A DNA stretch of 64,000 nucleotides from a virus (IMGVR_UViG_3300009009_000011:37842-101841), one strand, 5' to 3'. Shown: positions 44,110-64,000, numbered from the stretch's first letter. Made by a program: numbers and translations. The notes: generated by a model from the sequence alone, not told the origin.

Positions 44110-45104
44110 TGGCAATACATATTAAAAAAAGTAAAGTTGGTTCTTTGCACAAACACCTTGGCGTTAAGAAAGGTGATAAGATACCAGCATCTAAATTAAA
44201 GGATAAACCCGGTGATTCTAAGGCTGTTAAAAAGAAAAAAGTATTTGCTAGGAATGCTAAGAAGTGGAAACATCCAGAAGGTGGTACAGTTCGTCCAACT
44301 AAGACTTCTATGGTAGTTAGTAATAATGTGTGGACTCCACAAACTAGGCAAAGTATATATCCTTTATTAGCTAAGGCTGGTATGGTTGGTCATGGAGCTG
44401 ATAGTTTAACATTAGACCAATGGAATAAACTTATACCAGAAGATACAATGAAATATATGAATAGAGATAAAGGGTTTGATTATACTGTTGGTAATACAGC
44501 TAATCCTGGCGGAGTTAAATACTGGTCTATGGATTTAGTACCTAATATGCAGAGTTATGTACCAAATAGTAATAGTACTAATTATTTAACAGAGAGGTCT
44601 AATACTAAATATCCTGGTGGTGGCCAAGTTATGAGTGGTATAGGTGGTGTATTAGGTGCTATACCAACACCATATACACAAATTGCTGGTGCAGTTCTTA
44701 ACTTTGGTGGCATGTTGTTATCTGGTAATGAACAGAAGAAGGCTGAAGAAAAAGCAGCTTTACAAGATTACCAGACTAGTGCACAGAATGCAGCTAGGTT
44801 ATCTAACAGTAAAACACGTAATCCGTTTACTACTACATTTGCATATGGTGGTCTTGCACCTAATGGTACACCTATTGAAGTTGAAGATGAAGAAGTTATG
44901 CGTAATCCAAATGATGGTAGTATGGTTGAGTTTGATGGGGCTACACATGCACAAGGTGGCATAGATGTAGAAGCAGAACCAGGCTCACAAATATTTGGTA
45001 ATTTAAAAATTAAGTCAGGTACATACAAAGGTATGGAATATAAAGAAGCTGCTCAAGTTATTAAGGATAAGATTGCTAGGTTACAAAAAAAATTAGATAA
45101 GTAA
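44109..45104 (+). CDS. cargo/ejection protein, IHIKKS-start type (331 aa)
   Basis: The start IHIKKSKVGSLHKHLGVKKGDKIPASKL ... FARNAKKWKH is a common opening of phage virion-internal proteins. A hydrophobic Gly/Ala-rich segment (MSGIGGVLGAIPTPYTQIAGAVLNFGGMLL, about residues 177-206) suits membrane insertion on ejection. The C-terminal third (PIEVEDEEVMRNPNDGS ... THAQGGIDVEAEPGSQIFGN) matches a small domain repeated in cargo proteins of crAss-like phages. Confidence 0.68.
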   Translation: MAIHIKKSKVGSLHKHLGVKKGDKIPASKLKDKPGDSKAVKKKKVFARNAKKWKHPEGGTVRPTKTSMVVSNNVWTPQTRQSIYPLLAKAGMVGHGADSLTLDQWNKLIPEDTMKYMNRDKGFDYTVGNTANPGGVKYWSMDLVPNMQSYVPNSNSTNYLTERSNTKYPGGGQVMSGIGGVLGAIPTPYTQIAGAVLNFGGMLLSGNEQKKAEEKAALQDYQTSAQNAARLSNSKTRNPFTTTFAYGGLAPNGTPIEVEDEEVMRNPNDGSMVEFDGATHAQGGIDVEAEPGSQIFGNLKIKSGTYKGMEYKEAAQVIKDKIARLQKKLDK

Positions 45105-46060
45105 TGGCAACATTGATTGATAAATATAGTATAGAGAAAATGATTGATCGTTATCAGAAAGAGTTAGATCAATTGTTTGCAGAACAAGAAACTTTAAAGG
45201 TTAAGGCTAATCCATTTAGAAGACTTAAGGCTAAAGGTGGTTTAGATGTACCAGAAGATTATAGATTTAATACAGCATATAATGCAGATGATTATATAGC
45301 ATTAGAAGAAGGTAATAATCCAGGGATACAAAATGTTGGTCAGTATTTAAATACAGCAGAACCTACACAATCCCCAAAAGGTGTTTTTAATTTTAGGGAT
45401 AAATTTGATATATTTCTTGCTAATGCTGCTGATAAATTAAAAAATGCTGATTGGGATAAGATAGGTAATAGTGCTATGCAAATGGCATCTCCTATGTATA
45501 ATATAGTAAAAGGTTTATCCAAACCTACTAAAACATTACCTAAGTATAATCCTTACAATGATTATATAAGGTCGTTGATGAGGAATAGGCGATTTAATAT
45601 TGATCCACTGCTTAATAAGAATTTAGTTGCAAATGCTGTTGCAAATAAGAATATAAGTAATGTTGCTAGGTCTCGTGGGGAGTTAATGAGTAACCTTGGA
45701 GCAGCACAGAATTACCGTATGACAGGTGATATGGCGGCATACGCACATAAGGATAACATGGATAATCAGTATATGGCAGAAGAAGCACAGATGGATTATG
45801 GTGTAGGTCGTGATATATCTCAAATGGATTGGGGTACACAGATAGCTAATGAACAGAATAAGGCTGCAAGGAATCAGTTTTTAGGGCAGGGTATGGTAGA
45901 CTTTGGTCAGTTTGCTCAGGTTCAGCAGCAAATGAAAAATCAGAAAGGTAGGGATCAACAATTAGCTGGTATATGGCAGGATTCTTATCCGTTTATGTCT
46001 CAGTTTATGCCAAATGTTCAAAGCATTGTAGACTACGCCAATCAACTTAAAACAACATAA
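45104..46060 (+). CDS. cargo/ejection protein (318 aa)
   Basis: Helical with a Gln/Asn/Met-rich C-terminal half (AAQNYRMTGDMAAYAHKDNMDNQYMAEEAQMDYGVGRD; later FAQVQQQMKNQKGRDQQ), as in podovirus internal proteins that form a channel after ejection. N-terminal coiled coil at 1-33. No catalytic motif. In line with the other cargo genes, one-base overlap upstream. Confidence 0.6.
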   Translation: MATLIDKYSIEKMIDRYQKELDQLFAEQETLKVKANPFRRLKAKGGLDVPEDYRFNTAYNADDYIALEEGNNPGIQNVGQYLNTAEPTQSPKGVFNFRDKFDIFLANAADKLKNADWDKIGNSAMQMASPMYNIVKGLSKPTKTLPKYNPYNDYIRSLMRNRRFNIDPLLNKNLVANAVANKNISNVARSRGELMSNLGAAQNYRMTGDMAAYAHKDNMDNQYMAEEAQMDYGVGRDISQMDWGTQIANEQNKAARNQFLGQGMVDFGQFAQVQQQMKNQKGRDQQLAGIWQDSYPFMSQFMPNVQSIVDYANQLKTT

Positions 46061-46061
46061 T

Positions 46062-48203
46062 ATGCAGACAAATCGATTTGAACAACCTCTAGCAGCACAA
46101 TTTGTAAATACATACGTGCCTATACCATTTGAGCAGATGATGCAAGCTGGTCAGATGAAGCAAGAGAGATATGATAAGGCTGCCGGGGCTACAGATGCCC
46201 TTATAGGGGCAATGGATGATATTACAGCAATACCTAATTCTGCAGATGAACTTCGTGCTAAGGACTATGCTAATAAAATGCGTTCAATACGTGACAAGTA
46301 TCTTACAAGAGATTTGTCTGACCCATTTGTACAGCGTGAGTTAAGTAATGAGATCAACAATAATATTAATAAAGAAGATATAAAACATATACAGCAGTCA
46401 TACCAAGGTTATTTAAATTATAATAAAATATTATCTGACTACGCAGCAAAGGGTGTAGATCCTCCACCGGAAATGTTAGAGAGATTTAGTGGTTATGATT
46501 CTACTGTTAAAGGTGTATTTACAGGTACTCCACAGCAGCAATTAGATGTTTATGGTGATACTAGGAAGTTCTTTGAGGACATGGAAATGCAGTATCAAGG
46601 AGTTGTTGATTTGTCTCCTGGTGTTAAGGGACTTAAGCACGCAGTAACAGAAGAGCGTATATTAGAACATGCTAAGAATAATATAGGTGCTTATATGGCG
46701 TTACCATCTGTTAGGCAACATGTAGAGGTAATGAAAAGGCGTGGACTTGATGAAGGTAAATCTCGTGAGCAATTAGCTTTTGAATATGTACAAAATCATG
46801 CACCTGAATTTGCTAGGTCTGCTGTTAGTAATCCATTTGAAGACCCGAATTATGTACCTGGTGGTGGTACAGGTAATCCTACTGGTCAGTCAGAGCCAGA
46901 AACATTTGGTAGAGGACCTGCCGAAGGGGAAGACTTTAAGAAACGTCAAATGATGAAGGATTATAATAGTCTTGTTGAACGTTATAAAGAAGGGGATACT
47001 TCTGTTAAAAATGATATAGACGAGATTGAAGCAGCTTGGGCAAATGCTGGAAATGTTCCTAGAGAGGGTTCTAAGACTACACCAAATGAAAATATTGAGA
47101 GGTATCAAACAGAAGGAGAAGCGTTGTTTCAAGCTACATTAGATGTTTTAGTTGATAAAGGGATGCCAGAAGACGAAGCTTTTCTTTATTTAGAATCTAA
47201 TGCGTCAGAACCTTTAATAAATATGTATAAGAGTGGTTCTAAAGCAGGTGTAATGTATATTAATGATCCATTACTTAAAGGTAAGGTAGAAAATATTGCA
47301 GATGCTTATAGGCTTAATTATTTTTCTAATCCGTTGATGCCAATGGAAGATAAGAAACGCAAAGAAATTTTTAATGAATATCAAAAAGCCAATTTATCCA
47401 ATGAACAAATATTAGCAGATTATGTAGGTAAGTCTAATGATTTGACTAAGAAAATTTCAAAAGAGCAAGACAACATAGAAAAATATAAGTTACAAGAATA
47501 CAATAAGTTACAGCCTACACAAGATACATATACTATTGTTAATGGTATGTTTGCTTATAATAAAAATATAGGCGCTTTTGAAGGCACTTATTTTGACAAA
47601 AACGGGGTATCTAAAAAGTATTCTAGTATATCTAGTAAAAAGGTAACTGATACTATTTATAATCCAAATAATTATGAAAAATCCTTCTTTGATGAAAAAG
47701 GTAAACCTATTAAAAAATCTGAAAAAATTAAAGAAGCAATAGCAAATAGTTCTGGTTTTACAATTACTGGGTTGGATAATAATGTAACAGATTCTCATAA
47801 GGCTAAAATAAAGATTAATATGCTTAACGAAAGTGGAATGCCTAGTGGTAGTAATTTTATAGTAGAGATACCTTTTGATAGTGATAAAGAATTATCAAGT
47901 TTTGTTAGAGAATTAACTAACAGGAATCAAACTAAAACAAAATTTCAACAACTCACAGTACCAAGTGTAAAAGCGGCTTTAGATGGTGTAGCTATATATG
48001 ATGGTGAAGAAATAAGTCTTACAAAATTGGGAGCAATAGGGGAATCTCCTAACAATAAAATAGTATTTGAAAGGTATGGACAATCTCCTTTAATAATGCC
48101 AGTTTTAATAAAAGATGGTATACGTCAAGAAATGACTAAGCAACCAGTTGGTTTAAAGAATTTACCTTTTGCCATTACTAATTATTTATACAATATTATT
48201 TAA
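46062..48203 (+). CDS. large cargo protein, crAss-like (713 aa)
   Basis: The start RFEQPLAAQFVNTYVPIPFEQMMQAGQMKQERYDKA is typical of the conserved cargo protein just before the RNA polymerase gene of crAss-like phages. Residues 40-330 are helical; 340-450 continue with TEGEALFQATLDVLVDKGMPEDEAFLYL; the last 230 residues are more beta-like. It would be ejected with DNA and might help the polymerase through the envelope. Confidence 0.68.
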   Translation: MQTNRFEQPLAAQFVNTYVPIPFEQMMQAGQMKQERYDKAAGATDALIGAMDDITAIPNSADELRAKDYANKMRSIRDKYLTRDLSDPFVQRELSNEINNNINKEDIKHIQQSYQGYLNYNKILSDYAAKGVDPPPEMLERFSGYDSTVKGVFTGTPQQQLDVYGDTRKFFEDMEMQYQGVVDLSPGVKGLKHAVTEERILEHAKNNIGAYMALPSVRQHVEVMKRRGLDEGKSREQLAFEYVQNHAPEFARSAVSNPFEDPNYVPGGGTGNPTGQSEPETFGRGPAEGEDFKKRQMMKDYNSLVERYKEGDTSVKNDIDEIEAAWANAGNVPREGSKTTPNENIERYQTEGEALFQATLDVLVDKGMPEDEAFLYLESNASEPLINMYKSGSKAGVMYINDPLLKGKVENIADAYRLNYFSNPLMPMEDKKRKEIFNEYQKANLSNEQILADYVGKSNDLTKKISKEQDNIEKYKLQEYNKLQPTQDTYTIVNGMFAYNKNIGAFEGTYFDKNGVSKKYSSISSKKVTDTIYNPNNYEKSFFDEKGKPIKKSEKIKEAIANSSGFTITGLDNNVTDSHKAKIKINMLNESGMPSGSNFIVEIPFDSDKELSSFVRELTNRNQTKTKFQQLTVPSVKAALDGVAIYDGEEISLTKLGAIGESPNNKIVFERYGQSPLIMPVLIKDGIRQEMTKQPVGLKNLPFAITNYLYNII

Positions 48204-48208
48204 TGTAA

Positions 48209-51200
48209 ATGAATAATAACATATTAAAAAGTCCTCAAGGAGAAATATTAAACGACACTCCCTTGGGTACTGAACCTATAAACTCTATGACAGGGTTAGA
48301 GGAAGGTCCAAAATTTAAAATAGATGTCGACAAATTTAAAAATGCAGGAGCATTATCTCGTCAAGAGCTTATAGGTCGTATACATACAGACGATGTAGAA
48401 ATACCTAAAGCTGTTTATAGAATTTTGGATGATATGTATCACCCCGAATTCGATCCCGAGTATAATGCTATTTTGCTTTCTAGGGAACAGACTAATGCTG
48501 GTAAATTTGTTGCTGCACTCAATCAAGCCGTTGTTGGTGAGATGTTTGCAGGTACATTAGAAGGGTTATCATATTTGGTAGATCTTCCTATGATGGTGGA
48601 TTTAGCAGAGGGTACTGAACAAGAGTTTGGTAATGCTTTAACTGATTTTGCTAAAGGGATTAAGGGGTGGACTCGTGAGGCTACTCCTGTATTTACAGAT
48701 CCGACAGCACCTAAATTTAATCCTACATCTTGGGAATGGTGGATGTCTAATGCTCCGTCCATTGCGTCTAGTATATCTTTAGCATTACCTGCAGTAGGTG
48801 GTATGAAAGCCTTATCTGCGGTTGGTAAATTGGTTGGTATGACTGGTAAGGCTGGTAAGTATAGCAAGTTATTTAGTACTGCTACTGGTCAGGCCATTAT
48901 GTCAAGGCACATGGAGAGTTTGATGGAAGCTAGTGGTGATCATCAACAGAATATTGAAATAGCTAAGCAAAAATTGTATCAGAAATATGCTAATCAAATA
49001 GATTCTGAGATTAAATTATTACCTGTATTTACTCCGGTGGACCCAGAATTAGGTCCTAAGCCAGGGCAATATACACAGGAACAATATCAAAAGGATTTAA
49101 ATAGAATAAAAAACAAATGGGAGTCTGTTGTATCAGAAGAGGCTTCTAAGATTGCTGCAGTGTCAGCTTCTAATACTTATGCTAAAAACTGGGTTATGTT
49201 ATTACAAGACATACCAGAGTATATGTTATTAGGTAGGCTAATTAAACCAGGTGTTAAAGGTATAGCAAAAGAGGCAGTTGAGAATTCTGCAGAAGTTGCT
49301 AAGCGAGTTGGTATGGATATGCCAAAGTTCTATGCCAGTAAGGTTGCTAAACAAATAGGCAACATGGCTGGTGAAGGGTTGGTAGAAGAAAATTATCAGT
49401 TCTTAGTAAATAAGCAGTCTGCTAATATGATAGCTAACTTGGATAATCCTGAAAAGAAGAATTCGTTAGTATCTGTGTTAGGAGATGAGTATGATAATGG
49501 TGAACTTTGGACTAATATATTTTTTGGTGCTTTAGGGGCTGGTGCTATGCAAGCTACTATGGCAGGTCTAAATGCTAAAGCGTTTTCAGAGGCTGCAAAG
49601 ACTAAGATTAAGAATATTAATACTTGGTCTACATTAATGTATAAACTTAAATCTGATTATGTAGCAGCTGAGGAACTTGGTGATGAGGCGCTGAAAGAAG
49701 CAGCTATACAGAATTTTGTAGCTGCTACAGGTCTTAAGTCTATAGAGCTAGGCAATAAGGAGCATTTACTTAATATGATAGATGCTTTAGCCAGTGGTGA
49801 TGAGAATGTGTTGCTTAATTATGAAATGGAATCTGGTACTAGGTCTTTCATGAAGGGGCATAACGAAATAGCTACAGACTTAAAGAAATCTATAGAGAGT
49901 ATAGATAAGAAGTATAAAGATGCTATGCTTGAAGTTGTTGGTAAGGGGGTTGAAGAAAACAAAGCCAGACCAATAGCTAGGTCAATTGCACATGCTAACC
50001 ACATGTTAGAGTTTTTAAATGGCAAACAGAAGCAAGCACAGGAGAATTTAAAAGGGTTACAAGTATTAGGGTATAATACACCAACCCCAGAGAATGAACA
50101 ATTATCTATAGAAGGTCAACAAATATTTGCAGCACGTCATGAGAAAGATGTACTGAATAAAAGGATATCTCAGTTAGATAAAAGGGCCGCTAATAATAGG
50201 GCTACAGAAGCTGAGAAGAACTCTTTAGGTAAAATAAAACAGGGTTTACAAAAGAGAGTTAAGGAGATAAGTGATGAAGCAAAGGAGCTTGGTAAAAGCC
50301 CTAATGTTTCAGAAGATCAAAGGGTTGTTGATAAAAAACTACTTGGTACAGAAAAGAAATCAGGTGTTATATCTCAGTCTGATGTAAGTAATTATTTAAA
50401 TGCACAAGAGGCATTAGAGTCTTACAACGTTGGTATTGAAGAATTTAAAGACCAATTAGAGCAAGCTAGGTTAACAGCAGATGAATTAGGTAAGAAGAAG
50501 CCTGATAGCAAACCTACTACACCAAGCAAACCTACAACAGAGGATGATGGTAAAGTATTTAAAGGTAGTGTAGTTAGCTACAAAGATCCTGAGACAGGTG
50601 AAGATAGACTTGGTGTTGTTGATGAAGTAGAGTACGCTACAAAGGACTCTAAGGGGCAAGATATTGTACCAAAGTTAGAAAGTGCTGATAATTTTTACAC
50701 TGTAACATCTTTAGACGAAAGGGATAAAGGTAAACAGGTACACTTATCAGGACTTAGTATAAAGCCTGTATCTCCAGAAACTGTTAAAGAGATAGATAAT
50801 GGGTTAGCAGAGGATGATACCGATGATTGGGATGCTTATGTTAAATCTACAGTGTTTGGTGCAATAAGTATCAAAGATGCACACAGGCGTAAAACAAACA
50901 CCCACAAATCGCCTAGTCAAGAGTCAGAGAAAGGTCTGATGGAATTTGTTTCATGGGCACATTATGAAGATGTGACCGATGAAGAGGCTAAAGAATTAGT
51001 AAATAATGGTCAGACACCTAAGCTTATTATACGTAATGAAGGTTTTAATAAGTTTATATCTAATCCAGAAAATCAGAAATATTTAGATAATGCTACTGCA
51101 GAATTTTCTATTGATGTAGAAAACAAAGATTTTAAGGCAAAGTTAAAGGAGTGGAAGTCTGAAAAAGGTCTTCATAAGAATTTACCAAAAGGGTATGTTG

Positions 51201-54200
51201 AACTTATAGAGGAGTTCTTAAAGGGCAAGAAACAATTGTCTGCTGAGAATTTAAAAGTATTATCGTCTATACCCTCTTTTTATGGGGAACTCCCTATATC
51301 TGTTAGGTTAACTATAAATGGTAAGCCGTTTACAGAGGGGTTATATCTTCATACATTAAGTAAAACGTTAGGTTCTTTAACTAATAAAGACGTATACAAG
51401 GCTTATAAGGATATGCGTCTTGCTATTGTTAAGCATCTTATTAAAGGAGATAAAATATATACCAAAGGTTTATCAACAAACCGTGGTAATCCATTAAACA
51501 TAGACAAATCTAATTCTGTTGATTCTCGTAAACGTAATGTTGCAGAAACATTAAAAACACCGGTTAATGAATTAGAATTATATGTACTTAAATCATCTAC
51601 AAAGTTATCAAAGCAGATACGTAGTGCCAAGACACCGGATGAAAAGGTAACAGATGAATACGAAAACCCTAGGTTAGTTAAGTCTGCAGAAGAGACAGTG
51701 GTGATGGATTTTAATTCATCTTCTACTGGTTCTGTGTTTGCTAAGACTAGTTTAACAGTTAATGGCAAACCTTTTGCAGTTAAACTAAACAAGTCGTTTG
51801 TTTCTCGTGATCATGCGTTTCTTTTATTCCATGCCTTTAGTAATTTAGCTAAGAGTGAAGTACGTGGGTTAGGCAAGATAGTTCCTAGAACAGATGAGAA
51901 GTCTGGTAAGGATGATATAGGTTATTATAATACACCACTTGGGTCTACTAAGGAAGATAAAGAGGGTGAGAATGTTATTGATAATATCTCTGCAGGAGAA
52001 TTATTAGATCTGTTAGTTGTACATGGTGAAGAATTAACTAATCCAGATAGCGAAAGGTATTCTGGGGTTAATGAATATAAGCGTATGTCAGAAAGGCACA
52101 GATTTGCTTTGAAAAACAAGCGGCTGTTTCTTAAACGTGGATATGATGATAAGGGTAATATAAATGCTGTTTACTTGTGTTATGGTGTATCAGTAGAACC
52201 ACACCCAATAAATACTTCTACACCGGGTACTACAAAGCTGGTTGATTATAATGTTATTGATTTAACGTCTCCTGTTGGTAATAGTAAGGATGGTATAGCC
52301 TATCAATCTAGTGTTGAGAGTTTTGTAGATTGGGTATCTGGTAAATATGACCTAAAAACTAAAAAACTTATTAGTGCTCCTAATAAAACATATGCTGTAC
52401 ATTTAGAACATAAAAGAATAGGTCAGAAATTAAACGGTTCATTTTTACAAGGTCGTAGTTTTAGGCTAGGTAAAAAGGGTTTAAAGGTACAAGTAAAAGA
52501 TGTTATGTATAAAGGGTTTGATTATACATCTACATCTGAAATACTTCGTAAACCAGGCGAATCTTATGTTGAGTTTCTTGTCAATAATGGTTTTGTTACA
52601 ACTGATTTAGAGGCCAAAGATGGTCTGTTATTTGACACTCCATTTGTTAAACTTGGGTTAGATAGGACAGCATCTAACTTTGGTATAATTGTTGGTGAAC
52701 CAGATAAGGCAGAGACTAAAGTTGCATCTACAGAGGTAACAGAGGAGACAGATAAGAATGTTACAGTTACAGAAGAGGTTAAAGTAGATAAGCCAAAGGC
52801 AACAAAGAAAGTCAAAGGTAAAAAGTCTGTATCTGATGTTATGAATAAAGGTCAGGTACATCTTAGGGAACGTAAGATTTCTGTACGTAAGCCTTATGAT
52901 AAGCAAGACTTAGAAAAAGAGTTGTCGTGGGTACGTAAGAAATTAAATATTAAAGACGTTGAAGTTGAAAAGCGTTTATCTAACATGATGTTACATGGTA
53001 AACGTGCATGGGCTATATATTCTAGTGAAGCTATAAAACTATATGAATTAGCAGAAAGTGGTACTATATACCACGAAGGTTTTCACAGAGTTAGTCTAGG
53101 TTACTTTACTAAACAAGAGCGTGAGGCTATATATAGATCTGCTAGGCAGTTATATAGAATGTCTAAAGAAGAGTTTACAGATAACCAAGTTGAGGAGAAA
53201 TTAGCAGAGGAGTTTCGTGATTTTGTACTAATGAAAGGTAAGGAGTCACAACCTAGTATTATTAAACGCATATTCCAAGAGATTGTAGATTTTATAAAGG
53301 CTGTATTTTATAGGGTAGCTGGTAAAGGGTTAACACACTCTGACATAGAGAGACTGTTTAATCAGATTTATTCTGGTCGTTACAGGTTCTCTAACATACG
53401 TTCAGAGAATTTGGGTGTTGAGCCGAGGTTAAGAGAGTTAATGGGTTTACAGTTTGATACCATATCTTCGTATAAGGACATAACAGATATTACTAAATAT
53501 CTATCTTGTAGGTTGTTTGCAGCAAATAAGATTAGTGACTTAAGTAAGGTGCGTAAAATTAAATGGCAGCCCTTAATTAATGATTTAAATAACACTATAA
53601 GTGAATTACAGAGCATAATAGAAGATGAAGAAACATCAGAGGCTGAGCGCAATGTTGCTTTAAAGTCTCAGTCCTTATTGAAAGATGTACTTGGTGAAAA
53701 AGGAGAGAATGGCGAGTATTCTAAATTTAATTCTTTTAAATATTATATAAGCAAATTCCTTCGTAGTAACGGTATTATACACAGGGAACGGGATACAGAC
53801 AATGATGAGTTTTTTGATTCAGATGATTTTTTTGCATCATTAGACTCAGAAGAGAAGTCGGTACGCCTTGGTTCTTTTGGTGATGTTGATTACTTTAAGC
53901 CATTAAAAGAAAATGCATTAGCAAACGTTAAATTTGTTATAAATACATTACACGAATCTGATGATATTAATGAGTCTACTGGTTTAGTTGGATTTGTTAA
54001 TGGTAATAAGGTATGGGCTAAGCTGTTGAATGACATTATCAAGTATGATGATGTATATGAAATGATTGACGAGATCAAAGCAGTAGGTGAACGTGAAGAG
54101 TATTATCCATATATAGAATTAGCCTCTTATTTAGAGAAGTCAAGCGAATCGTTCAGGACTCAGTTCCAAACAACCTTTGAGGCACACAGACATGAGTTTA

Positions 54201-57200
54201 TAAATGCTTCATTTCATAGGATAAAGTCTGGTGAAGGCTCTAATGCTGGTATTAATATAACGTTTGATGACGCTGCACACTCTGAATTAAAACGTGGTAC
54301 TGCTCTAAGGTGGGCAGAATATATACTGTATGATAATAAAATTATTGAGGGTGTTAAAGAAGAAGATACTTCTGTAAGGGATAAGAAAGTAAATAAAGAT
54401 TTCTTTACAGAACTTGCATCAGATTATAGGGATGTAGTAGAAGGTTATTATAGAGAGGTCAGCAACAACGGGCGTAATGAGTTATCAGACACTGAATTAG
54501 AAGAGTTGTACACTAGGGTAGCTAGGGCTTTATCTAAGATGCATATTGATGTAAGTACCTCTGTATTACGTAGGTATACACATAATATCAATCCAGACAA
54601 CCAATTACAGGATAACTTAGAAGTTGCTATATCTAATATATTGGATATGCTATCCCCTGAAACTATAACAGAGGATGATAAACCAACAACCCCTATGGGT
54701 AACATACACTTCTTATCGTTGGCTACAGCTTATGCTGAAGTTAATACACACGAAGAAGCTGGTATGGTGCTAGGTCCACAAGGTGGGTCTTTTTACAGGT
54801 ATGCTAAACTTAATCATGCTACAGATATAGTTCGTAAAATAAAACGTGGTCCTAAGTGGGCACAAGATAAACTTTCCAGGCGTTATAATGGTCATTCAAG
54901 AATAATGAATTCATTTGTTCCTGGTGAAACAGTTAATGAAGAACAAGCAAAACTTAACAGAAGTAAGTTTAAATTAGTTACATTAGCTGCATTTAAATCT
55001 GGGGCAAGGGCGGATCGTGGTCGTGAATATTTGAAGATAAATACAATTGAAGATTATTTACTTAAGGCCAATTCTGTTCTTAAAGGCGGACTGTTACCAT
55101 TCCCTATTATAGCTAATAGGCAGACTTATTATTTTATGCAAGGTGTTAAGCTTGTAGGTATAAAGGATGCTGAAGGAGATATATTACATGTCATAAAGAG
55201 TTCCGATAAGGATGGCAATGTACAGTTTACAGACGAGGTGTTAGATTTATTCTATGGTTATTACTTAGATGAGAAAGATAGAATTGACAAAGCTGTAATT
55301 GAACGTAACGAATATGAGGCTGAGAATAAAAGGTTACAGGATCTTAAAAAACAACCAGGGGTAGACATAAAGAGTATAGATAAGCAGATAAGGGCTTTAA
55401 AACACAAGCTTATAGCTAATTATCATTATCGTGGTAACTATAATTTAAAGCAAGGCAACGCTTATTATTTTATACACTTTAAAGGCTTTGAAGGGCTACA
55501 AACCCCAGAGGAAGTTCGTACCAAGATAAATAACTTACTTAATGATAGGCTAAAGGATGATATAAGGTTCTTATATGATCAACAAATTATAGGGTCAAAT
55601 ACAGAAAAAGAGCGTAAAGAGTCTGGTGAATTGTTATTATACAACAAACTGTTTGATCAGAGTATGGTGGACAATCACAGGATGTTAGAAGAACAGCCAC
55701 ACAACTTTGCAATGTTATCTGTAATATCCAAAGTCATGGTTAATACTATGATGGGTATTGTGGAGTCTGAGAAAATGTTTCTTGGGGACCCTGCCTTATT
55801 TAAGCGTAATAAACGTGGTCAGGACCGGGCAATGGAAGGTAAACTTACAGACTCCGAGTTTGATGTATATGAAGATGTATACAAACGTTGGTTTGGTGTA
55901 GGTTCTACTGGTACAAGGTTAAGGGCTAAGTATAATGGTAGGGGTAATACATATAATGTTTCTGTATTCAACACACAGTCTTTTGAGTCAAAGTACTACC
56001 CAGAGTTTGTAGAGAAACACACAGGCTTGTATGAGAAACTTTTAAAAAACAGGTTATCAAAAGAAGAACTTGCAGATGGATCAAAGTTAAAAGATATACA
56101 AGAATTAGCAAAAACATTAGCAGAGAGTAGGCTTAGTAAGTTTAGAAAGGTTGATGCTACCGATGGTATGGCATTGATATCTCCTTATATGTATAAGCAG
56201 ATATTAGACCGTATGGGTATTTGGGGTAAGGATGCAAGGTTAGAAAGGGCTTATAATTTACTGCAGTCTGATAAAGAGTTAACTCCAGAAGAAATAATTG
56301 AGGCTAGCAATATTGTATTCAATCCTTTGAAGACAATGTATATGGGCAACCACAATTTTAATGGGGTTGATTTGCTTATTTACAACAAAATGGCTATGTT
56401 CACCTTGTTTAGGCAGCATGTTAAAGGCACACATCTAGAAAAGGTGTTGGACCGCATGGAGTCTAAAAAGGAATTTAAGAACTTAGAAAAGGTAGATGTA
56501 TATAACTTTAATAGTGCTGTCAAAGTAGGCGCATTGGCCGGTGTTGATTTATTTGAGAATGAAAATACTAGGAATAAAACAACAGACTTCTCTGAGTCTT
56601 TAGTATTCCAGCAGTCTTTTGACAATTTAAAACATCAGCAAGTTACAGATCCACACGATTCAGCTAGGCAGAACTTTGGTACAGCTGGTATCAAAATTGG
56701 TATGGCAGATATAGATATGAACTCTCCTTACGGTTCGTTTAAGACCGGTAGAGAGTTATTAGAAGCTATGTCAGAATCTAGGGTTGCTGCTAGTGATTTT
56801 GGTGTACACAAGGTTAATGCTAAGTTTGGTATAGTTAATGGTAAAGTATCACAGAAGGTCTTTACTAATACTTTACGTCAGGATGCAGAGTCTGCTAACA
56901 AATCGCAAGACGTTGTTGAATCGTTTAAGGTAGGGGCAGATGGTAAAAAGTATTTAGAACTAGACTCTTATCCTAACAGACGTTGGATATACTCTAGGAT
57001 AAAATCTCTTGTAGATGATGAGACGGTTACGTTATCTACACCAGGTAATCAGCTTTATCAGATGTCTGATTATGGCATGGGTACGCATAATTATAAATCT
57101 GATTTACAGATGACAAGGTCAAAAGCTGGTTCATCTACAGTATATGCTATGGAATGTAGGGTGTCAGCTCGGTTATTTAAGGCGTTTTTCCCTGCTGGGC

Positions 57201-60200
57201 ATGTTATTACACAAGAGGATTTACAGAAATTATTGGATGATGAAACTCTTATATTTGGGTACCGTGTACCTACACAAGGCCAGAACTCCATTGTTAAATT
57301 AAAGATAGTAGAGTTTCTGCCAGAACAAACCGGGGATATTATACAACTTCCTTTAGAGTTTACTGCACTTACTGGTTCTGACTTTGATATTGATAAATTA
57401 TTCGTAGCCATGTTTAATTATGAACATGAATATGATGGTGATGCATTTAAAGGGCTCAAGAAAGTTGCATTTAAAACAGATGAGAATAGTACTGCAGAAG
57501 AAAGGTATAAGGATAAAGTAATAGAGTTGTTTTCTGTGTATAGGCATAACCCAGACATGTTTGCTGGTGGGCTGCTGTCAAAATATTTTAAAGATTATGA
57601 TAACAAATTTAGGTTAAGTGATATAGAGTCTAAAATAGATTCTGTAAATGAAGAGTATGGGGAAGAGTTAGATTTATTGATGACTAGGCGTGAGTCTATG
57701 TTAGATAAACTTAGTAAGTCTAAAAATAAAGAGTACAATAAAGCTCTTGAAGATGATATAGCCACAGCTAATAGGCGGATAGAGGAGATACAGGAGATTG
57801 TATACAACATGCCTTTACAACGTAAGGTTGATAAGCAGTTAGAAGATGTGGATTATGAGATGTTGAAGGGCATTCTTATTAAGTCTGGTGTTTTACAGAA
57901 ATTAGAAGATTTTAAAAAGTTACCAATTTCATTCCAGAATACTAATGCCGCTTGTTGTAACAGGCTATTGGATTGTTTATTTACAGTGTTAAGTGATGAG
58001 AAACACTTCCTAAATATGACAACTCCTTTGGGGTCTTGCACAGATTTATTAGAAAACAAGTCTGCTTATTATGAGGAAGTTTATTCTAGGCAGAGTATTA
58101 GGAATGTACCTGCTCTGTTTACAACAACCCCGTCGTTTCAGGCACACACTAAGGAAAAATTTGCTGCATCCGTATTTGGTATAGCTCCGTATGCTTTAAA
58201 TAATAACAACCATTCATTAACTCAGATGGCAGATGTTTCCCTAAAATATGATATAGATTTAGGGTTTAATAAGAAAGGGGAAGTATCTTTAGCCAGAGTT
58301 ATGGGTGAAGATAACAGGGCTGTAACCTCGTGGATATCTGCTTTGATTGATATAAACGTGGACGGTGTTAATAAACCAACCGCAGCCCCGTTGAATATAA
58401 ATGAATCTACACACGATGTAGTGAACTTTTTAGTTCGTGCCGGTATTGGGGAACCTGTGTTTGATTTTATAGCACAGCCTGCCATAAGGAGCTATAGTTC
58501 TAATTTCTTTAAGTCTGCTACAGGTAGTAAACGTTTCAGTACTATTACGTCGATAGACTCTAAAGATCCTTTGGGGGATACTAGAGAAGAGTATGCAACT
58601 AATGCTGTTGATGGTGGCTTCTTTAAGAAAGAAGAATTAGAGTATGATATATTCTTAGAAAATTCGTTGATTCCATTAAGTGAACTTTTAAATGAGAGGT
58701 CTATACCTATTATGCGTGAAGATGCAAAAGCATTTAATAAAAGGTCTTTACGTACAAAGGGTTGGTATCAGCGTCAGTTATCTATATTGTGGCACTTAGG
58801 GGCTTTAAAAGAAGCCTCAGCCAAACTCAATGCATTTGTATTAGCCTGCAGGGTAGATACAAAAAAATATGGTTCAAAACCTACAGAAATATTACATTTC
58901 ATAAAATCTATACAGAATATTATAGACAGTGAAGATTTTACAAATGTTGAAAAAATACTAACAGCTAATCCTAATTATGAATACAAGGCTGGCGATACAT
59001 TTTTGCCTACACTCATAAGGAATAGTATGTTTAAGATATACGAAATATTAAAGTATGAAAGTTTATATTCGTCATATGGGTTTAGGAAGTTATTAGAGGA
59101 ATTAGTAACTGTTACCCCACAAGGAGAGTATAATAGAATGGGTTTATTAAATATGTTGTCAGAAGAACTGGTAACATTCTTTATGGGTAAGTTTTTTGCT
59201 GATCCTGTAAATGGTTTTGGTATGGATCATTCTAAATTAACTAAGTTATTATTCGAAAAACGTGGTAATAAGTTTTTTGAAATGTTAATTCAGTTAAAAA
59301 ATGGTACACACCCATTATCCAAAGAATTAGAGGGTAATGCTTTTATGGACTCTATAGTTGTAGACTTTTCCGATAATATACTTAAATTCAAGGATAATCG
59401 TGGCTCTGTTTATACATATATTAAAACGTTATATAGGTCATTGCGTGATGATTTAGAAAAGGATGAGCTGGTTGATTCGTTTAAACAGATAGTTTATAGT
59501 GATAAGAAAGAGCTGAGAGATCTTGGTATATATTTATATATGTATTCATTTTATACCTCTGCTTTTAGGGATAAGCGATTTTCTTATGCTTCGTGGATGC
59601 CTTTATCATTAAATAAAGAGCTTGAGTATGATGGTAGGGTTATTAGTTTAAATAATTTTGTTAGTGGTTTATTGAAAGAACTCAATGCACCAGATGGCTA
59701 TATTAAATATATCCAAGATGCTAAGAGAGATGTATTCTTAAATACTGCAGATACTTTCGCAACTGTCCCTAGTGTTGTGGACACCATTGTTGCAGAACGT
59801 TTTGTAACGAAGGATGATGAGCCTCTTATGATACGTTTGAGATATGAAGATATGCCTAAGAGTTTCTGGCTAGGTCGTAATGCAGATAAGAATCATGTGT
59901 TTATACCTTATGTAATAGACAGTTCTAATGATTTGTATGAGTATGTTGGTTATGACAGACATTCGTTAGATCCTTACTATGTTAACGTGCCATTTAAAGG
60001 GTTTGGTAATAAAGGTATTATGGCCCATGAGTATGGTATTAAGACTAAGAAGGGTGATATACGTTCTGTATTTGCAACAAATCATGCACAGAAGCTATTA
60101 CTTACCGTAGACCAAATGATCAATAAGGTATTAACAGATCCAAAACTTATGAGTGAATCTCAACGTAATTTGTTTAATGGTGTATCATTCGAGAATCAGA

Positions 60201-61594
60201 TAGTTAAAGACAAATCTAATCAACCGTCCTCATCTATTTGGAATAATGATGCAGCAATGACAGCCAGGGAAGAAGAGTCTGAGCTTAACGCACAAGCCGA
60301 AGTAGATGCTGAAAAGGCTGTTAAACAGCGTAGCTTAGCAACTGGTTATGATGATGAAGTTGAAGCATTAGATAGTAATATTAAACAGTCTGTGGACAAT
60401 AAAACAACAAGGGACCATCCCATATATATAGATGTTGATGGTTCAGCCAAAGGGGAAAATGGTATGGGCATTGGTGGTTACTCAAAGTTTGGTGACAAAG
60501 AGTACTACTTATATCGTAATGATGAGAAGATACGTTCTTCTATAGCCAAATTAGCAGAGAATGCTGGTGTTGAAGTGCCAGATAATATAAGTAACCCAAC
60601 TGCCGAGTTATACTCTGTTGTTACGGTTTTATATGCATTTAGGAACACTTCTGAGCACTTACACATACGTAATGACAATGAGATGTCTATGTTATTATTA
60701 AAAAATAACTTAGTTAATCTAAAGAATAAGCCGCAATACAATGCTAAAGAGCCTATTATAAAGATTTTAACAGACATGGCTAAAGAGTATATAACTAGTA
60801 TTGAAAATAACGGCGGCACTGTTAAATTTGAATGGGTTGAGAGTAAATCTACTCCTCAAAATAAGATAGCAGACGTTATAGCAAAGGGTAAACACAAGTT
60901 AATAAGTAAGGTTCAGAATGATTTCTCTACTGAACAGTGGGGTAAACCAACTAAGTTTGACATGAACAAATTGTCTCCGCCATCTCCCTTTAATGTCATA
61001 GAAAAGATTATATCTGGTGGTCAGACTGGTGCAGATGAAGCAGGTCTTGAAATAGCAGATGAAATGGGTCTTAAGTTTGGTGGTACTGCCGCTTATGGTT
61101 ACAATCAACAGCCAGAAAAGGGTAAAAATATACCAAATTATAAACTTCGTGATTACTATAGGCTAAAACAAGGTAAGAAAACCATTAGGATTGTCAAAGA
61201 TACTAATAAATATTGGGATGATTTTTACTCGGACAGGACGGCAGAGAATGTAAAAAATTCTAGTGGTACGGTTTGGTTTGGCCACATAACAGAAGATGAA
61301 AAGCGTGGGTATGGTCTTACAGAGAGGGCGACTAAAGCCAACGACAAACCTTTCTTAGTAAATCCAACAGAAAAAGAATTAGCAGACTGGATTGTAAAGA
61401 ATGATATACGTATATTAAATGTGGCTGGTAATAGGGAATATTTAAATGTTGGTGTCAAGAATAGGACTAAAAAGACTATACGTGAGGCATTAGAGCTACT
61501 TAGGAAACCTGCTGGTGGTGTAGAAGTTGTAAATGACTTGAATGCATCTGACGTTAAAGACGGTTCTGAAACAACTAAAAAGTGTAGGGGGTAA
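48209..61594 (+). CDS. giant virion RNA polymerase polyprotein with RNase H and SLOG domains (4461 aa)
   Basis: The packaged multi-domain protein of a crAss-like phage, expected to enter the cell with DNA and transcribe early genes. Domains by sight: 1-560 helical, with hydrophobic Gly/Ala stretches (about 190-220, 440-460) for envelope passage; 790-850 a small beta domain; HEGFH at 1622-1626 followed by a distal Glu-rich helix (zincin-like peptidase); about 2500-3400 the RNA polymerase, with GYRVPTQGQ (3017-3025) leading to the metal-binding loop D3058-F-D-I-D3062, the DFDID signature of crAss-like polymerases; 4072-4220 an RNase H fold with Asp4075, Asp4077, Glu4133 and a later NKIADVIAKG Asp; 4262-4440 a YpsA/SLOG-like domain starting IISGGQTGADEAG (Gly4270, Gly4271). 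Described phi14:2 gp66 is roughly half this length, so extra domains appear fused here. The frame is intact over 13 kb without TAG or TGA reassignment. Confidence 0.85.
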   Translation: MNNNILKSPQGEILNDTPLGTEPINSMTGLEEGPKFKIDVDKFKNAGALSRQELIGRIHTDDVEIPKAVYRILDDMYHPEFDPEYNAILLSREQTNAGKFVAALNQAVVGEMFAGTLEGLSYLVDLPMMVDLAEGTEQEFGNALTDFAKGIKGWTREATPVFTDPTAPKFNPTSWEWWMSNAPSIASSISLALPAVGGMKALSAVGKLVGMTGKAGKYSKLFSTATGQAIMSRHMESLMEASGDHQQNIEIAKQKLYQKYANQIDSEIKLLPVFTPVDPELGPKPGQYTQEQYQKDLNRIKNKWESVVSEEASKIAAVSASNTYAKNWVMLLQDIPEYMLLGRLIKPGVKGIAKEAVENSAEVAKRVGMDMPKFYASKVAKQIGNMAGEGLVEENYQFLVNKQSANMIANLDNPEKKNSLVSVLGDEYDNGELWTNIFFGALGAGAMQATMAGLNAKAFSEAAKTKIKNINTWSTLMYKLKSDYVAAEELGDEALKEAAIQNFVAATGLKSIELGNKEHLLNMIDALASGDENVLLNYEMESGTRSFMKGHNEIATDLKKSIESIDKKYKDAMLEVVGKGVEENKARPIARSIAHANHMLEFLNGKQKQAQENLKGLQVLGYNTPTPENEQLSIEGQQIFAARHEKDVLNKRISQLDKRAANNRATEAEKNSLGKIKQGLQKRVKEISDEAKELGKSPNVSEDQRVVDKKLLGTEKKSGVISQSDVSNYLNAQEALESYNVGIEEFKDQLEQARLTADELGKKKPDSKPTTPSKPTTEDDGKVFKGSVVSYKDPETGEDRLGVVDEVEYATKDSKGQDIVPKLESADNFYTVTSLDERDKGKQVHLSGLSIKPVSPETVKEIDNGLAEDDTDDWDAYVKSTVFGAISIKDAHRRKTNTHKSPSQESEKGLMEFVSWAHYEDVTDEEAKELVNNGQTPKLIIRNEGFNKFISNPENQKYLDNATAEFSIDVENKDFKAKLKEWKSEKGLHKNLPKGYVELIEEFLKGKKQLSAENLKVLSSIPSFYGELPISVRLTINGKPFTEGLYLHTLSKTLGSLTNKDVYKAYKDMRLAIVKHLIKGDKIYTKGLSTNRGNPLNIDKSNSVDSRKRNVAETLKTPVNELELYVLKSSTKLSKQIRSAKTPDEKVTDEYENPRLVKSAEETVVMDFNSSSTGSVFAKTSLTVNGKPFAVKLNKSFVSRDHAFLLFHAFSNLAKSEVRGLGKIVPRTDEKSGKDDIGYYNTPLGSTKEDKEGENVIDNISAGELLDLLVVHGEELTNPDSERYSGVNEYKRMSERHRFALKNKRLFLKRGYDDKGNINAVYLCYGVSVEPHPINTSTPGTTKLVDYNVIDLTSPVGNSKDGIAYQSSVESFVDWVSGKYDLKTKKLISAPNKTYAVHLEHKRIGQKLNGSFLQGRSFRLGKKGLKVQVKDVMYKGFDYTSTSEILRKPGESYVEFLVNNGFVTTDLEAKDGLLFDTPFVKLGLDRTASNFGIIVGEPDKAETKVASTEVTEETDKNVTVTEEVKVDKPKATKKVKGKKSVSDVMNKGQVHLRERKISVRKPYDKQDLEKELSWVRKKLNIKDVEVEKRLSNMMLHGKRAWAIYSSEAIKLYELAESGTIYHEGFHRVSLGYFTKQEREAIYRSARQLYRMSKEEFTDNQVEEKLAEEFRDFVLMKGKESQPSIIKRIFQEIVDFIKAVFYRVAGKGLTHSDIERLFNQIYSGRYRFSNIRSENLGVEPRLRELMGLQFDTISSYKDITDITKYLSCRLFAANKISDLSKVRKIKWQPLINDLNNTISELQSIIEDEETSEAERNVALKSQSLLKDVLGEKGENGEYSKFNSFKYYISKFLRSNGIIHRERDTDNDEFFDSDDFFASLDSEEKSVRLGSFGDVDYFKPLKENALANVKFVINTLHESDDINESTGLVGFVNGNKVWAKLLNDIIKYDDVYEMIDEIKAVGEREEYYPYIELASYLEKSSESFRTQFQTTFEAHRHEFINASFHRIKSGEGSNAGINITFDDAAHSELKRGTALRWAEYILYDNKIIEGVKEEDTSVRDKKVNKDFFTELASDYRDVVEGYYREVSNNGRNELSDTELEELYTRVARALSKMHIDVSTSVLRRYTHNINPDNQLQDNLEVAISNILDMLSPETITEDDKPTTPMGNIHFLSLATAYAEVNTHEEAGMVLGPQGGSFYRYAKLNHATDIVRKIKRGPKWAQDKLSRRYNGHSRIMNSFVPGETVNEEQAKLNRSKFKLVTLAAFKSGARADRGREYLKINTIEDYLLKANSVLKGGLLPFPIIANRQTYYFMQGVKLVGIKDAEGDILHVIKSSDKDGNVQFTDEVLDLFYGYYLDEKDRIDKAVIERNEYEAENKRLQDLKKQPGVDIKSIDKQIRALKHKLIANYHYRGNYNLKQGNAYYFIHFKGFEGLQTPEEVRTKINNLLNDRLKDDIRFLYDQQIIGSNTEKERKESGELLLYNKLFDQSMVDNHRMLEEQPHNFAMLSVISKVMVNTMMGIVESEKMFLGDPALFKRNKRGQDRAMEGKLTDSEFDVYEDVYKRWFGVGSTGTRLRAKYNGRGNTYNVSVFNTQSFESKYYPEFVEKHTGLYEKLLKNRLSKEELADGSKLKDIQELAKTLAESRLSKFRKVDATDGMALISPYMYKQILDRMGIWGKDARLERAYNLLQSDKELTPEEIIEASNIVFNPLKTMYMGNHNFNGVDLLIYNKMAMFTLFRQHVKGTHLEKVLDRMESKKEFKNLEKVDVYNFNSAVKVGALAGVDLFENENTRNKTTDFSESLVFQQSFDNLKHQQVTDPHDSARQNFGTAGIKIGMADIDMNSPYGSFKTGRELLEAMSESRVAASDFGVHKVNAKFGIVNGKVSQKVFTNTLRQDAESANKSQDVVESFKVGADGKKYLELDSYPNRRWIYSRIKSLVDDETVTLSTPGNQLYQMSDYGMGTHNYKSDLQMTRSKAGSSTVYAMECRVSARLFKAFFPAGHVITQEDLQKLLDDETLIFGYRVPTQGQNSIVKLKIVEFLPEQTGDIIQLPLEFTALTGSDFDIDKLFVAMFNYEHEYDGDAFKGLKKVAFKTDENSTAEERYKDKVIELFSVYRHNPDMFAGGLLSKYFKDYDNKFRLSDIESKIDSVNEEYGEELDLLMTRRESMLDKLSKSKNKEYNKALEDDIATANRRIEEIQEIVYNMPLQRKVDKQLEDVDYEMLKGILIKSGVLQKLEDFKKLPISFQNTNAACCNRLLDCLFTVLSDEKHFLNMTTPLGSCTDLLENKSAYYEEVYSRQSIRNVPALFTTTPSFQAHTKEKFAASVFGIAPYALNNNNHSLTQMADVSLKYDIDLGFNKKGEVSLARVMGEDNRAVTSWISALIDINVDGVNKPTAAPLNINESTHDVVNFLVRAGIGEPVFDFIAQPAIRSYSSNFFKSATGSKRFSTITSIDSKDPLGDTREEYATNAVDGGFFKKEELEYDIFLENSLIPLSELLNERSIPIMREDAKAFNKRSLRTKGWYQRQLSILWHLGALKEASAKLNAFVLACRVDTKKYGSKPTEILHFIKSIQNIIDSEDFTNVEKILTANPNYEYKAGDTFLPTLIRNSMFKIYEILKYESLYSSYGFRKLLEELVTVTPQGEYNRMGLLNMLSEELVTFFMGKFFADPVNGFGMDHSKLTKLLFEKRGNKFFEMLIQLKNGTHPLSKELEGNAFMDSIVVDFSDNILKFKDNRGSVYTYIKTLYRSLRDDLEKDELVDSFKQIVYSDKKELRDLGIYLYMYSFYTSAFRDKRFSYASWMPLSLNKELEYDGRVISLNNFVSGLLKELNAPDGYIKYIQDAKRDVFLNTADTFATVPSVVDTIVAERFVTKDDEPLMIRLRYEDMPKSFWLGRNADKNHVFIPYVIDSSNDLYEYVGYDRHSLDPYYVNVPFKGFGNKGIMAHEYGIKTKKGDIRSVFATNHAQKLLLTVDQMINKVLTDPKLMSESQRNLFNGVSFENQIVKDKSNQPSSSIWNNDAAMTAREEESELNAQAEVDAEKAVKQRSLATGYDDEVEALDSNIKQSVDNKTTRDHPIYIDVDGSAKGENGMGIGGYSKFGDKEYYLYRNDEKIRSSIAKLAENAGVEVPDNISNPTAELYSVVTVLYAFRNTSEHLHIRNDNEMSMLLLKNNLVNLKNKPQYNAKEPIIKILTDMAKEYITSIENNGGTVKFEWVESKSTPQNKIADVIAKGKHKLISKVQNDFSTEQWGKPTKFDMNKLSPPSPFNVIEKIISGGQTGADEAGLEIADEMGLKFGGTAAYGYNQQPEKGKNIPNYKLRDYYRLKQGKKTIRIVKDTNKYWDDFYSDRTAENVKNSSGTVWFGHITEDEKRGYGLTERATKANDKPFLVNPTEKELADWIVKNDIRILNVAGNREYLNVGVKNRTKKTIREALELLRKPAGGVEVVNDLNASDVKDGSETTKKCRG

Positions 61595-61595
61595 T

Positions 61596-64000
61596 ATGGA
61601 TTATTGTATTAATGAATCTAGCAACGATTATAAAGAACTATTTGAAGTATTCGGTTCTACTGAAATAATTCATGCGTTATGGGATCGTAACAAGGGTAAT
61701 AATCTTGATAAAGACCCTGATGGCAATGATAGTATTTTGTTTAATCAATTACTCCAACTTACTAATAATAATAGGTATGATGCATTGCGTATGAAATCAC
61801 GGTTTTATCTTGACTCATATACAGATATGCATGGTAAATGGTATGATAATTTTATAGAAGAACCTGAGTTAGACTTCCCACAATCTACCAAAAAGTTAAT
61901 AAGTTTTGTATCTAAGATGTCTAATAAATTTGGGTATGCATGGGACTTTGCTGAAGAAGGAGAATTGCCAAGTGGTGTTGCGGCCGGTATTAGAACAACC
62001 GGTAAGCATCCTGTAGCAATATTTAGAAAGGACAAACTAGCTACATCAGATGTAATACATGAATTTGGTCATTTAATTCTTAATCATATTAAGCGAGACA
62101 ATTCTGAGTTGCATGATAATTTGTGGAAAGAATTTGAAAATATGAGTGATGGGTTTAAGAAGGAGATGTGGGATTATATAAATTCTCAATATCCTGGTTA
62201 CACTCAAATAGCTAAGAAAGATGAATTACTAACACACTTGTTAGAAACCTACGGTAATGAATTAGTAGATAAAGAAACTGGTTTATTTAAGGCTTTAACA
62301 AAAGTATGGGAATATGTCATAAAAGTTGTTGCTGATGTGTTTGGTGTTGTAGATGTATCAAAACTTAAACCAAATACAACTTTAGTAGAGCTTGCTTATA
62401 TTATAGCAGACCCTAACATTAAATTAAGCCTTGGTGAAATATTTGGATCAGGGGAATTAAAAGAGAGTTATTCTGGTGAATATGATCTTAGCGGAAATGC
62501 ACCATTTAAAGTAGAGGGTGAGTCAACTCCTTTTACCATAGATGAAATTAAAACAAAATTATTAGATGCTAGTAAAAATATTGTCAAGGAAGATGTAGAA
62601 GTAAATGGTAAGATTAAAGAAAAGAGATTCCTTAAAATAGACGACAACACCAAACAACCTCTTATAGGTATTAAGAGATACATGGCAGAAAAATGGGGGT
62701 ACGGATCTGTCGAGGCGTCAGATGAAGATGCACTTCCTTTACGTATTGGTAAAACTATACACGGTCATGTAGATAATATATCTAAGGATATCATTGATGA
62801 TTTGTCAGATAAGTACAAGGTTAATTTAACACCCCAAGCTAAGAAGGATATTGAAAAGATATTTAAAAAACTTAAGGGTAAAGCTACTGCTTTGACAGAA
62901 GTAGAAATATGTGATCCAGAAAAAGGGTTTGTGGGTATAATTGACTTAATATTAATAACAGACACAGGTCGTGTACAGCTGTATGATTTTAAAACTAAGA
63001 TACGTCCACTAGTAGAACAATCAAATGGCGAATTTGAATTAAGTTACAGTAGGTTTGACTATTATAATCGTAAGAATTCTTGGAGTAGCCACACTCAGCA
63101 AGAAGTAGATCACTTACAGATATCTATGTATGCTTATATGATACAGAAAGTTTTACAACTTCCTGTTTCTTCTATATCTATTGTTAAATTAGATGCTGTT
63201 GCCAAAGGTAAAGAGATTAAAAGTAATAAGTATGCATCTGGTAAAGAATTTGTAGCTAATGTTGATAGTAAAGGTTATACAAAAGTAGAGTCAGTTGAAG
63301 TACATACAGAGTCTGAGGAAATATTAGAATTACCATTCTTTGATGAATCAAATAAGATGTTATTACATCATAGGACTAGACGTATATATGAAGGGGACGA
63401 AGCTTATTTACATAGTAGCACATTAGAAAATAGAGAAAAGTTTAGAAAAGAGGGTGGCGAAAAAGACTTTGTAAACGTTACTGAATCTGCATCAGAAGCA
63501 GGTGAGCTTTTAGAAAAGCTTAAGTCAGAATTAGACGCAAGGTTAAAAATTGCACGTAAACGATTTGATATAGGGCAACGTGGTTCTCTGGAAGATTTAA
63601 TGGATATATTTGAATCAGAACAATCGACTACTACTTCCTTATATCACATTATATTAAATGCTGCAGAAGCTATATCACAACTGGACAAAGAATATACTGA
63701 TTATTTATCTAATTCTACTCCATTTACACCAGGTTTATTATATAGGTGGAAGGATATAGTACAATCTTACAAGAGTTTACAGGAACTGAAAGACTTGTTC
63801 ATTATACATCCAGAAATTATACCAGATAAAAACTATGTAAAGAAACTTAATATCATACTTGAGAAAGTAAATTTCTATGAGAATCAGTATAAGAAAGAAG
63901 GTAGGTATCTTATAGCAAAGTGGTTAGCTCCATTCTATAATGGTATAAAAGTAAAGCATGAAGATTTATATAAGGCTGAATGGCGCCGCAAACGTCATCA
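61596..64000 (+). CDS. giant virion protein with HEFGH peptidase and PD-(D/E)XK nuclease cores (partial)
   Basis: Starts one base after the polymerase stop (TAATATG) and is open to the right edge, at least 801 residues. DVIHEFGHLILNHI gives a zinc-peptidase motif, His155-Glu156 ... His159, with a downstream helix ELLTHLLETYGNEL that could supply the third ligand. At about 435-470, EVEICDPEKGFVGIIDLILITDTGRVQLYDFKTK has Asp450, Asp464 and Lys466 spaced as in Cas4/RecB-type PD-(D/E)XK nucleases; HLQISMYAYMIQKVL then fits the conserved QxxxY helix (about 508-521). The remainder is helical. Position suggests co-packaging with the polymerase and roles in host DNA or protein processing; not proven. 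Confidence 0.78.
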   Translation, partial: MDYCINESSNDYKELFEVFGSTEIIHALWDRNKGNNLDKDPDGNDSILFNQLLQLTNNNRYDALRMKSRFYLDSYTDMHGKWYDNFIEEPELDFPQSTKKLISFVSKMSNKFGYAWDFAEEGELPSGVAAGIRTTGKHPVAIFRKDKLATSDVIHEFGHLILNHIKRDNSELHDNLWKEFENMSDGFKKEMWDYINSQYPGYTQIAKKDELLTHLLETYGNELVDKETGLFKALTKVWEYVIKVVADVFGVVDVSKLKPNTTLVELAYIIADPNIKLSLGEIFGSGELKESYSGEYDLSGNAPFKVEGESTPFTIDEIKTKLLDASKNIVKEDVEVNGKIKEKRFLKIDDNTKQPLIGIKRYMAEKWGYGSVEASDEDALPLRIGKTIHGHVDNISKDIIDDLSDKYKVNLTPQAKKDIEKIFKKLKGKATALTEVEICDPEKGFVGIIDLILITDTGRVQLYDFKTKIRPLVEQSNGEFELSYSRFDYYNRKNSWSSHTQQEVDHLQISMYAYMIQKVLQLPVSSISIVKLDAVAKGKEIKSNKYASGKEFVANVDSKGYTKVESVEVHTESEEILELPFFDESNKMLLHHRTRRIYEGDEAYLHSSTLENREKFRKEGGEKDFVNVTESASEAGELLEKLKSELDARLKIARKRFDIGQRGSLEDLMDIFESEQSTTTSLYHIILNAAEAISQLDKEYTDYLSNSTPFTPGLLYRWKDIVQSYKSLQELKDLFIIHPEIIPDKNYVKKLNIILEKVNFYENQYKKEGRYLIAKWLAPFYNGIKVKHEDLYKAEWRRKRH

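Follow-up and report, generated by a model that had tools for sequence, protein, structure and literature searches.

What is the function of an RNase H-like domain and a SLOG domain carried at the very end of a giant phage RNA polymerase? This question is raised by the viral record IMGVR_UViG_3300009009_000011 (101,841 bases), of which bases 37842-101841, a stretch of 64,000 nucleotides referred to here as the window, were compared with metagenomic contigs from IMG/VR and with named phages. The window encodes, on the plus strand (48209..61594), a single-chain virion RNA polymerase (RNAP) of 4461 residues belonging to the crAss-like phages, a group that ranks with the most numerous viruses in the human gut. 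The original prediction had read the last 400 residues as an RNase H core followed by a YpsA/SLOG-like domain, and had proposed that the SLOG domain, delivered with the polymerase, could bind or destroy an alarm nucleotide before any phage gene is expressed, with the RNase H removing RNA:DNA hybrids made by the polymerase. Both domains are borne out by our results, and it is clear from a comparison of related sequences that the polymerase tail is a swappable region rather than a fixed structural part.

A crAss-like virion polymerase ending in RNase H and SLOG domains

The middle of the 4461-residue protein matches the structure of the virion RNA polymerase of Cellulophaga phage phi14:2 (6vr4_A, E-value 8e-24), and the homology to phi14:2 gp66 together with the catalytic motif DFDID at residues 3058-3062 (57380..57394, plus strand), which is conserved in relatives, identifies it as a crAss-like virion RNA polymerase. 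Relatives of the polymerase core were found in 109 phage records, nearly all crAss-like. Further polymerases were reached with an alignment of the polymerase motif as the query and not by single-protein scans; in such scans of viral contigs with pieces of the window, the sole match was an identical second copy, IMGVR_UViG_3300027762_000015. Polymerase proteins have been detected in phicrAss001 virions by mass spectrometry (PMC10172136), and the database record of phi14:2 flags gp65-gp67 as supported by tandem mass spectrometry. By analogy with these orthologues, the 4461-residue polymerase is probably packaged in the virion as well.

The SLOG domain is of the circularly permuted YpsA (cpYpsA) type and occupies residues 4267-4426 (61007..61486, plus strand), beginning with IISGGQTGAD at residue 4267. 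It matches PF12694 over model positions 1-143 of 145 (E-value 7.7e-20; score of 71.6 bits, cut-off 26.2) and retains all of the pocket motifs GGQTG...GGTA...RTxxN...NVAGNR, here in the form of GGQTGAD at 4270-4276, GGTA at 4291, RTAEN at 4343, and NVAGNR at 4404. The nearest solved structure by sequence is PDB 3imk (E-value 2.2e-6), which is also the top Foldseek match (E-value 3.5e-10, template modeling [TM] score 0.74 on the target) of the SLOG domain in an AlphaFold2 model of residues 4064-4461 produced with 15 relatives (mean predicted local distance difference test [pLDDT] score 81, about 90 inside both domains). A stand-alone cpYpsA gene mis-joined to the open reading frame (ORF) is ruled out by the continuous frame, the identical second contig, and the relatives with the same placement. 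The suggested kinship with ThsA of the Thoeris defense system fared less well. It appears weak because cpYpsA is a different SLOG branch, and a Pfam scan of the polymerase chain found no SIR2 domain with which to form a ThsA-type SIR2-SLOG architecture.

The RNase H1-like domain precedes the SLOG domain at residues 4069-4240 (60413..60928, plus strand), as supported by the Pfam matches of homologues, alignment, AlphaFold2, and Foldseek, and the two are separated by a linker modeled with low confidence by AlphaFold2 (60929..61006, plus strand). The window copy has no match to PF00075 at E<=1; this model matches four homologous tails, from the contigs that we designate L025 (9.8e-6), L026 (1.3e-3), L028 (1.1e-11), and L029 (1.6e-12), and the domains of L028 and L029 also match the ribonuclease HI models of NCBIfam and PHROGs. 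The modeled fold of the window domain matches E. coli RNase HI (2z1g; Foldseek E-value 3.3e-7, TM score 0.60 on the target). The motifs cited in the original prediction all lie at the residues given there, YIDVDGS at 4073-4079 (containing D4075 and D4077) and NKIAD at 4218-4222 among them, and the active sites are not degenerate in relatives: the SLOG motifs are intact, and the D-E-D-D set of D4077 (60437), E4133 (60605), D4156 (60674), and D4222 (60872), all on the plus strand, is invariant in five of five aligned copies. The RNase H fold and E4133 stand as predicted. Since D4077 is invariant in this five-sequence alignment, it rather than D4075 is the first catalytic aspartate, and D4075 is doubtful as a second catalytic residue.

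The tail differs between closely related polymerases

Polymerases from named phages and from the IMG/VR motif alignment were translated, with TAG read as Q where needed, and the parts following the core were scanned for domains. No one fixed tail emerged. The nearest relative, L025, is the sister of the window polymerase with 97% support in the Shimodaira-Hasegawa-like approximate likelihood ratio test (about 48% identity over ~1,200 residues), and its RNase H domain is followed by an A1S_2505 domain (NF049995, E-value 3e-36) in place of SLOG; for this domain, AlphaFold2 gave a pLDDT of 47 and a PDB profile search returned no match. The tail of L026 consists of RNase H only, that of L028 of RNase H and a phrog_768 SLOG (E-value 1e-40), and that of L029, in the next clade, of cpYpsA followed by RNase H, the reverse of the window order. 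Further afield, the tails include an SF1 helicase (cr118_1), a phrog_2072 domain with an SF1 helicase (cr50_1), a SLOG of phrog_10774/cpYpsA type (cr10_1, whose close relative L069 has no SLOG), and the phrog_768 "DprA-like" SLOG (cr109_1 and cr113_1). Longer arrays are found in cr130_1 (SLOG, NADAR, and DUF7831), cr272_1 (NADAR, DUF7831, DUF1848, and SLOG), L041 (A1S_2505, DUF1848, NADAR, and SLOG), and L096 (helicase, DUF7831, DUF1848, and SLOG). By eye only, an ASCH-like stretch at about residues 6080-6200 of cr272_1 (L022) seems to lie inside the SLOG domain, beside a DUF1848 with a cysteine cluster.

On a tree of 79 crAss-like polymerases, the minimum number of state changes was 13 for any SLOG, 9 for the phrog_768 SLOG, 9 for A1S/DUF7831, 8 for the helicase, 5 for NADAR, 4 for cpYpsA, and 2 for RNase H. 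The exact counts are soft, as this was a quick tree without bootstrap and the hidden Markov models of the survey were seeded from the same tails, the main assignments having first been made by Pfam, PHROGs, and NCBIfam. The turnover can also be followed between nearly identical phages. Contigs L057 (IMG/VR 3300008450_007695) and L058 (3300008116_004701) are 100% identical over 13,654 bp and 99.98% identical over the following 6,037 bp, and the sole difference between their tails is a clean in-frame insertion of a NADAR domain of about 150 residues. The varied or missing tail domains in relatives rule out a structural tail common to all crAss polymerases.

Possible roles of the tail

A swappable tail supports the idea of an accessory module delivered by the virion and makes counter-defense directed at NAD- or ADP-ribose-based signals plausible. 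We consider it an evenly poised proposal that the window tail is such a module, combining this counter-defense with hybrid removal by RNase H. According to this proposal, the accessory module of about 400 residues would sit between the polymerase body and a conserved C-terminal cysteine peptide and would, to judge from the orthologues, ride in the virion with the polymerase and enter the cell with the DNA. From entry on, ahead of any phage gene expression, the SLOG domain would bind or cleave an adenine- or ADP-ribose-containing nucleotide, either an NAD-derived signal of host immunity or a toxic ADP-ribose product. RNase H would clear RNA:DNA hybrids, whether R-loops made by the polymerase or hybrids made by the host, and the turnover of domains would track the defense repertoire of the hosts. 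Phage SLOG, NADAR, Macro, and Nudix proteins, typically stand-alone, have been predicted to counter diffusible ADP-ribose signals or toxins (PMC9503650), and NADAR enzymes are reported to undo the ADP-ribosylation of guanine that the anti-phage toxin DarT carries out (PMC11125620, PMC11543638). The recurrence of SLOG, of three kinds, and of NADAR in the same slot is the main new support and, as a pattern in sequence, strengthens the counter-defense part of the original prediction. Other domains in the slot likewise resemble components of the ADP-ribose network, and such domains are gained or lost between close relatives.

Several observations weigh against counter-defense. SF1 helicase, RNase H, and DprA-like SLOG modules also suit work on nucleic acids; many crAss-like polymerases, including several from named phages and those of Steigviridae, had no recognized tail domain in our scans; and NADAR, Macro, and further RNase H domains were not found in the genome record of the window, so no companion NAD-related gene backs counter-defense here. 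The main rival is accordingly a helper role, in which the tail modules would aid transcription or guard the entering genome through R-loop removal by RNase H, template opening by SF1 helicases, or the holding of single-stranded DNA by DprA-like or cpYpsA SLOG, with no anti-defense function. It competes because the same slot is also filled by helicases, RNase H, and DprA-like domains, with SF1/Dda-like helicases in 10 and RNase H in 5 of the 79 tails, and DprA, itself a SLOG protein, binds single-stranded DNA and has been noted for phages (PMC7824862). However, cpYpsA, NADAR, and A1S_2505/DUF7831 have no known role in transcription, many relatives lack any tail module, and the modules are dispensable, as they are present or absent between near-identical phages. 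On balance, we regard a purely helper role as possible but rather unlikely, and the two roles may both be true for different modules.

The arrangement of SLOG and RNase H bears on two further explanations. In one, the SLOG domain would act as a sensor, and a host nucleotide, once bound, would activate or silence either the polymerase or the RNase H. Sensor regulation has been proposed for phage SLOG fusions to nucleic-acid enzymes (PMC9503650), and, of the five tails with RNase H, three have SLOG adjoining it. However, the reversed order in L029 and the retention of RNase H in L025 and L026, which have no SLOG, make tight allosteric coupling unlikely, and we consider a sensor improbable. In the other, the RNase H would itself be the counter-defense part, destroying RNA:DNA hybrids of the host such as the multicopy single-stranded DNA of retrons or reverse-transcriptase products, with SLOG a separate tool. 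The complete D-E-D-D site and the separability of RNase H from SLOG would suit this, but the domain is limited to the small clade of the window (five loci and two changes on the tree) and nothing links it to any defense system, which makes this the least probable of the explanations considered.

Literature searches combining crAss with SLOG gave no match, those combining crAss with NADAR gave solely unrelated word matches among the matches listed, and the word "crass" is absent from the text of the survey of phage counter-defense domains (PMC9503650). A swappable module on an injected polymerase would offer a defined set of expressible candidate immune antagonists (cpYpsA, phrog_768 SLOG, NADAR, A1S_2505, and DUF7831), and L057 and L058 provide a natural presence/absence pair for NADAR.

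Paired cysteines at the ends of consecutive proteins

In the window, the SLOG domain is followed by a C-terminal peptide of low model confidence that ends in KKCRG (61487..61591, plus strand) and contains the terminal cysteine C4459 (61583-61585). The next gene, which encodes an RNAP-associated protein and runs off the window (61596..64000, plus strand), starts with MDYC, its cysteine lying at 61605-61607. This pairing is nearly general. The polymerases are nearly cysteine-free, yet 64 of 75 non-redundant complete ones have a cysteine among the final 12 residues (the composition of the tail itself would predict 1.2%), and 59 of 59 next genes have one within the first 12 (expectation, 1.5%). 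The accessory domains are placed between the polymerase body and this terminal peptide. Nine of the 11 polymerases without a terminal cysteine are fused with the next protein in one chain, as judged by C-terminal homology to proteins that are separate in relatives, and these nine fused chains are free of cysteine throughout the visible sequence; in the other two, the cysteine lies 16 and 50 residues before the C-terminus. In phi14:2, gp67 ends in its single cysteine (residue 1797), the two cysteines of gp66 are at residues 3 and 2179, and the one of gp65 is at residue 3, and in cr112_1 and cr128_1 an opposite-strand subunit has, in its visible part, a single cysteine near the C-terminus. Because the cysteine pair is lost upon fusion, which provides a natural control, the pattern suggests a covalent or metal link, perhaps a disulfide, between consecutive ejected cargo proteins. 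Searches of the literature on cysteine and ejection returned unrelated reviews only and no experiment on such a link.

Low cysteine content is also seen in neighboring and distant proteins. Three ORFs directly upstream of the polymerase in the window (44109-48203; 331, 318, and 713 residues) have no cysteine in 1362 residues, and the N4 virion polymerase (L190) has none in its visible 2492 residues. Ejected proteins may be characterized by depletion of cysteine. If the disulfide link is true, it would be relevant to the passage of a 500-kDa polymerase and its partners out through a narrow tail. It is a tentative generalization, to which we give somewhat less credence than to the counter-defense module of the window, that the extreme C terminus of crAss-like polymerases might be a general docking place for exchangeable counter-defense enzymes, SLOG and NADAR among them, acting at DNA entry, with the polymerase and its partners leaving as a cysteine-coupled train.

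cpYpsA domains and possible protease motifs in giant proteins

Scanning IMG/VR with a cpYpsA alignment left 80 viral loci, in 29 of which the domain is embedded in an ORF of >1000 residues (not de-duplicated, and including two of the polymerase tails already discussed). PF12694 was matched in 16 of 16 giants scanned, one of which also has NADAR and one YAcAr. These giant ORFs indicate that cpYpsA has repeatedly been joined to very large phage proteins. DFDID polymerases among them are L112, L120, and L121, and in L108, L116, L118, L168, and L181 a DxDGD motif resembles that of RNAP and may mark further polymerases. Of the giants with cpYpsA, L108, L114, and L181 share the terminal cysteine and next-gene cysteine pattern, which may therefore reach beyond the classical crAss-like phages.

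The window polymerase also contains the HExxH motif HEGFH at residues 1622-1626 (53072..53086, plus strand), which takes the form YHEAFH or YHEAWH in the giant RNAPs of Suoliviridae, a form kept also in L112 and L120. It is a possible zincin-type protease motif, and the Pfam scan of the polymerase chain gave no family match at this site.

Comparison with known systems

The polymerase resembles phi14:2 gp66 (6vr4) in being a single chain with DFDID, in gene order, and in having a next gene that starts with a cysteine. However, gp66 has 2180 residues and no accessory tail, whereas the window protein unites the upstream and catalytic parts in one chain of 4461 residues and adds RNase H and SLOG. 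The RNase H domain shares the fold and the D-E-D-D set of RNase HI (PF00075) but has diverged too far to be recognized by the Pfam model alone, is fused to a polymerase, and has no counterpart of the His loop of L028 and L029. The SLOG domain is like 3imk and the PF12694 family (putative molybdenum carrier) over the whole domain, in motifs, and in predicted fold, although the phage members in Maribacter phages Molly and Colly are stand-alone proteins of 150 residues and that of the window is fused to a virion polymerase. The same holds for the counter-defense set of SLOG, NADAR, and Macro surveyed previously (PMC9503650), whose members are typically stand-alone and which recurs, fused, in the polymerase tails. 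Destruction of cyclic ADP-ribose isomers by a phage protein is documented for another fold, that of the anti-Thoeris remover RyDEP (PMC13232231). RyDEP and the window SLOG are alike in their proposed target class of ADP-ribose-based immune signals, but the folds are unrelated, and the activity is established for RyDEP and predicted for the SLOG domain.

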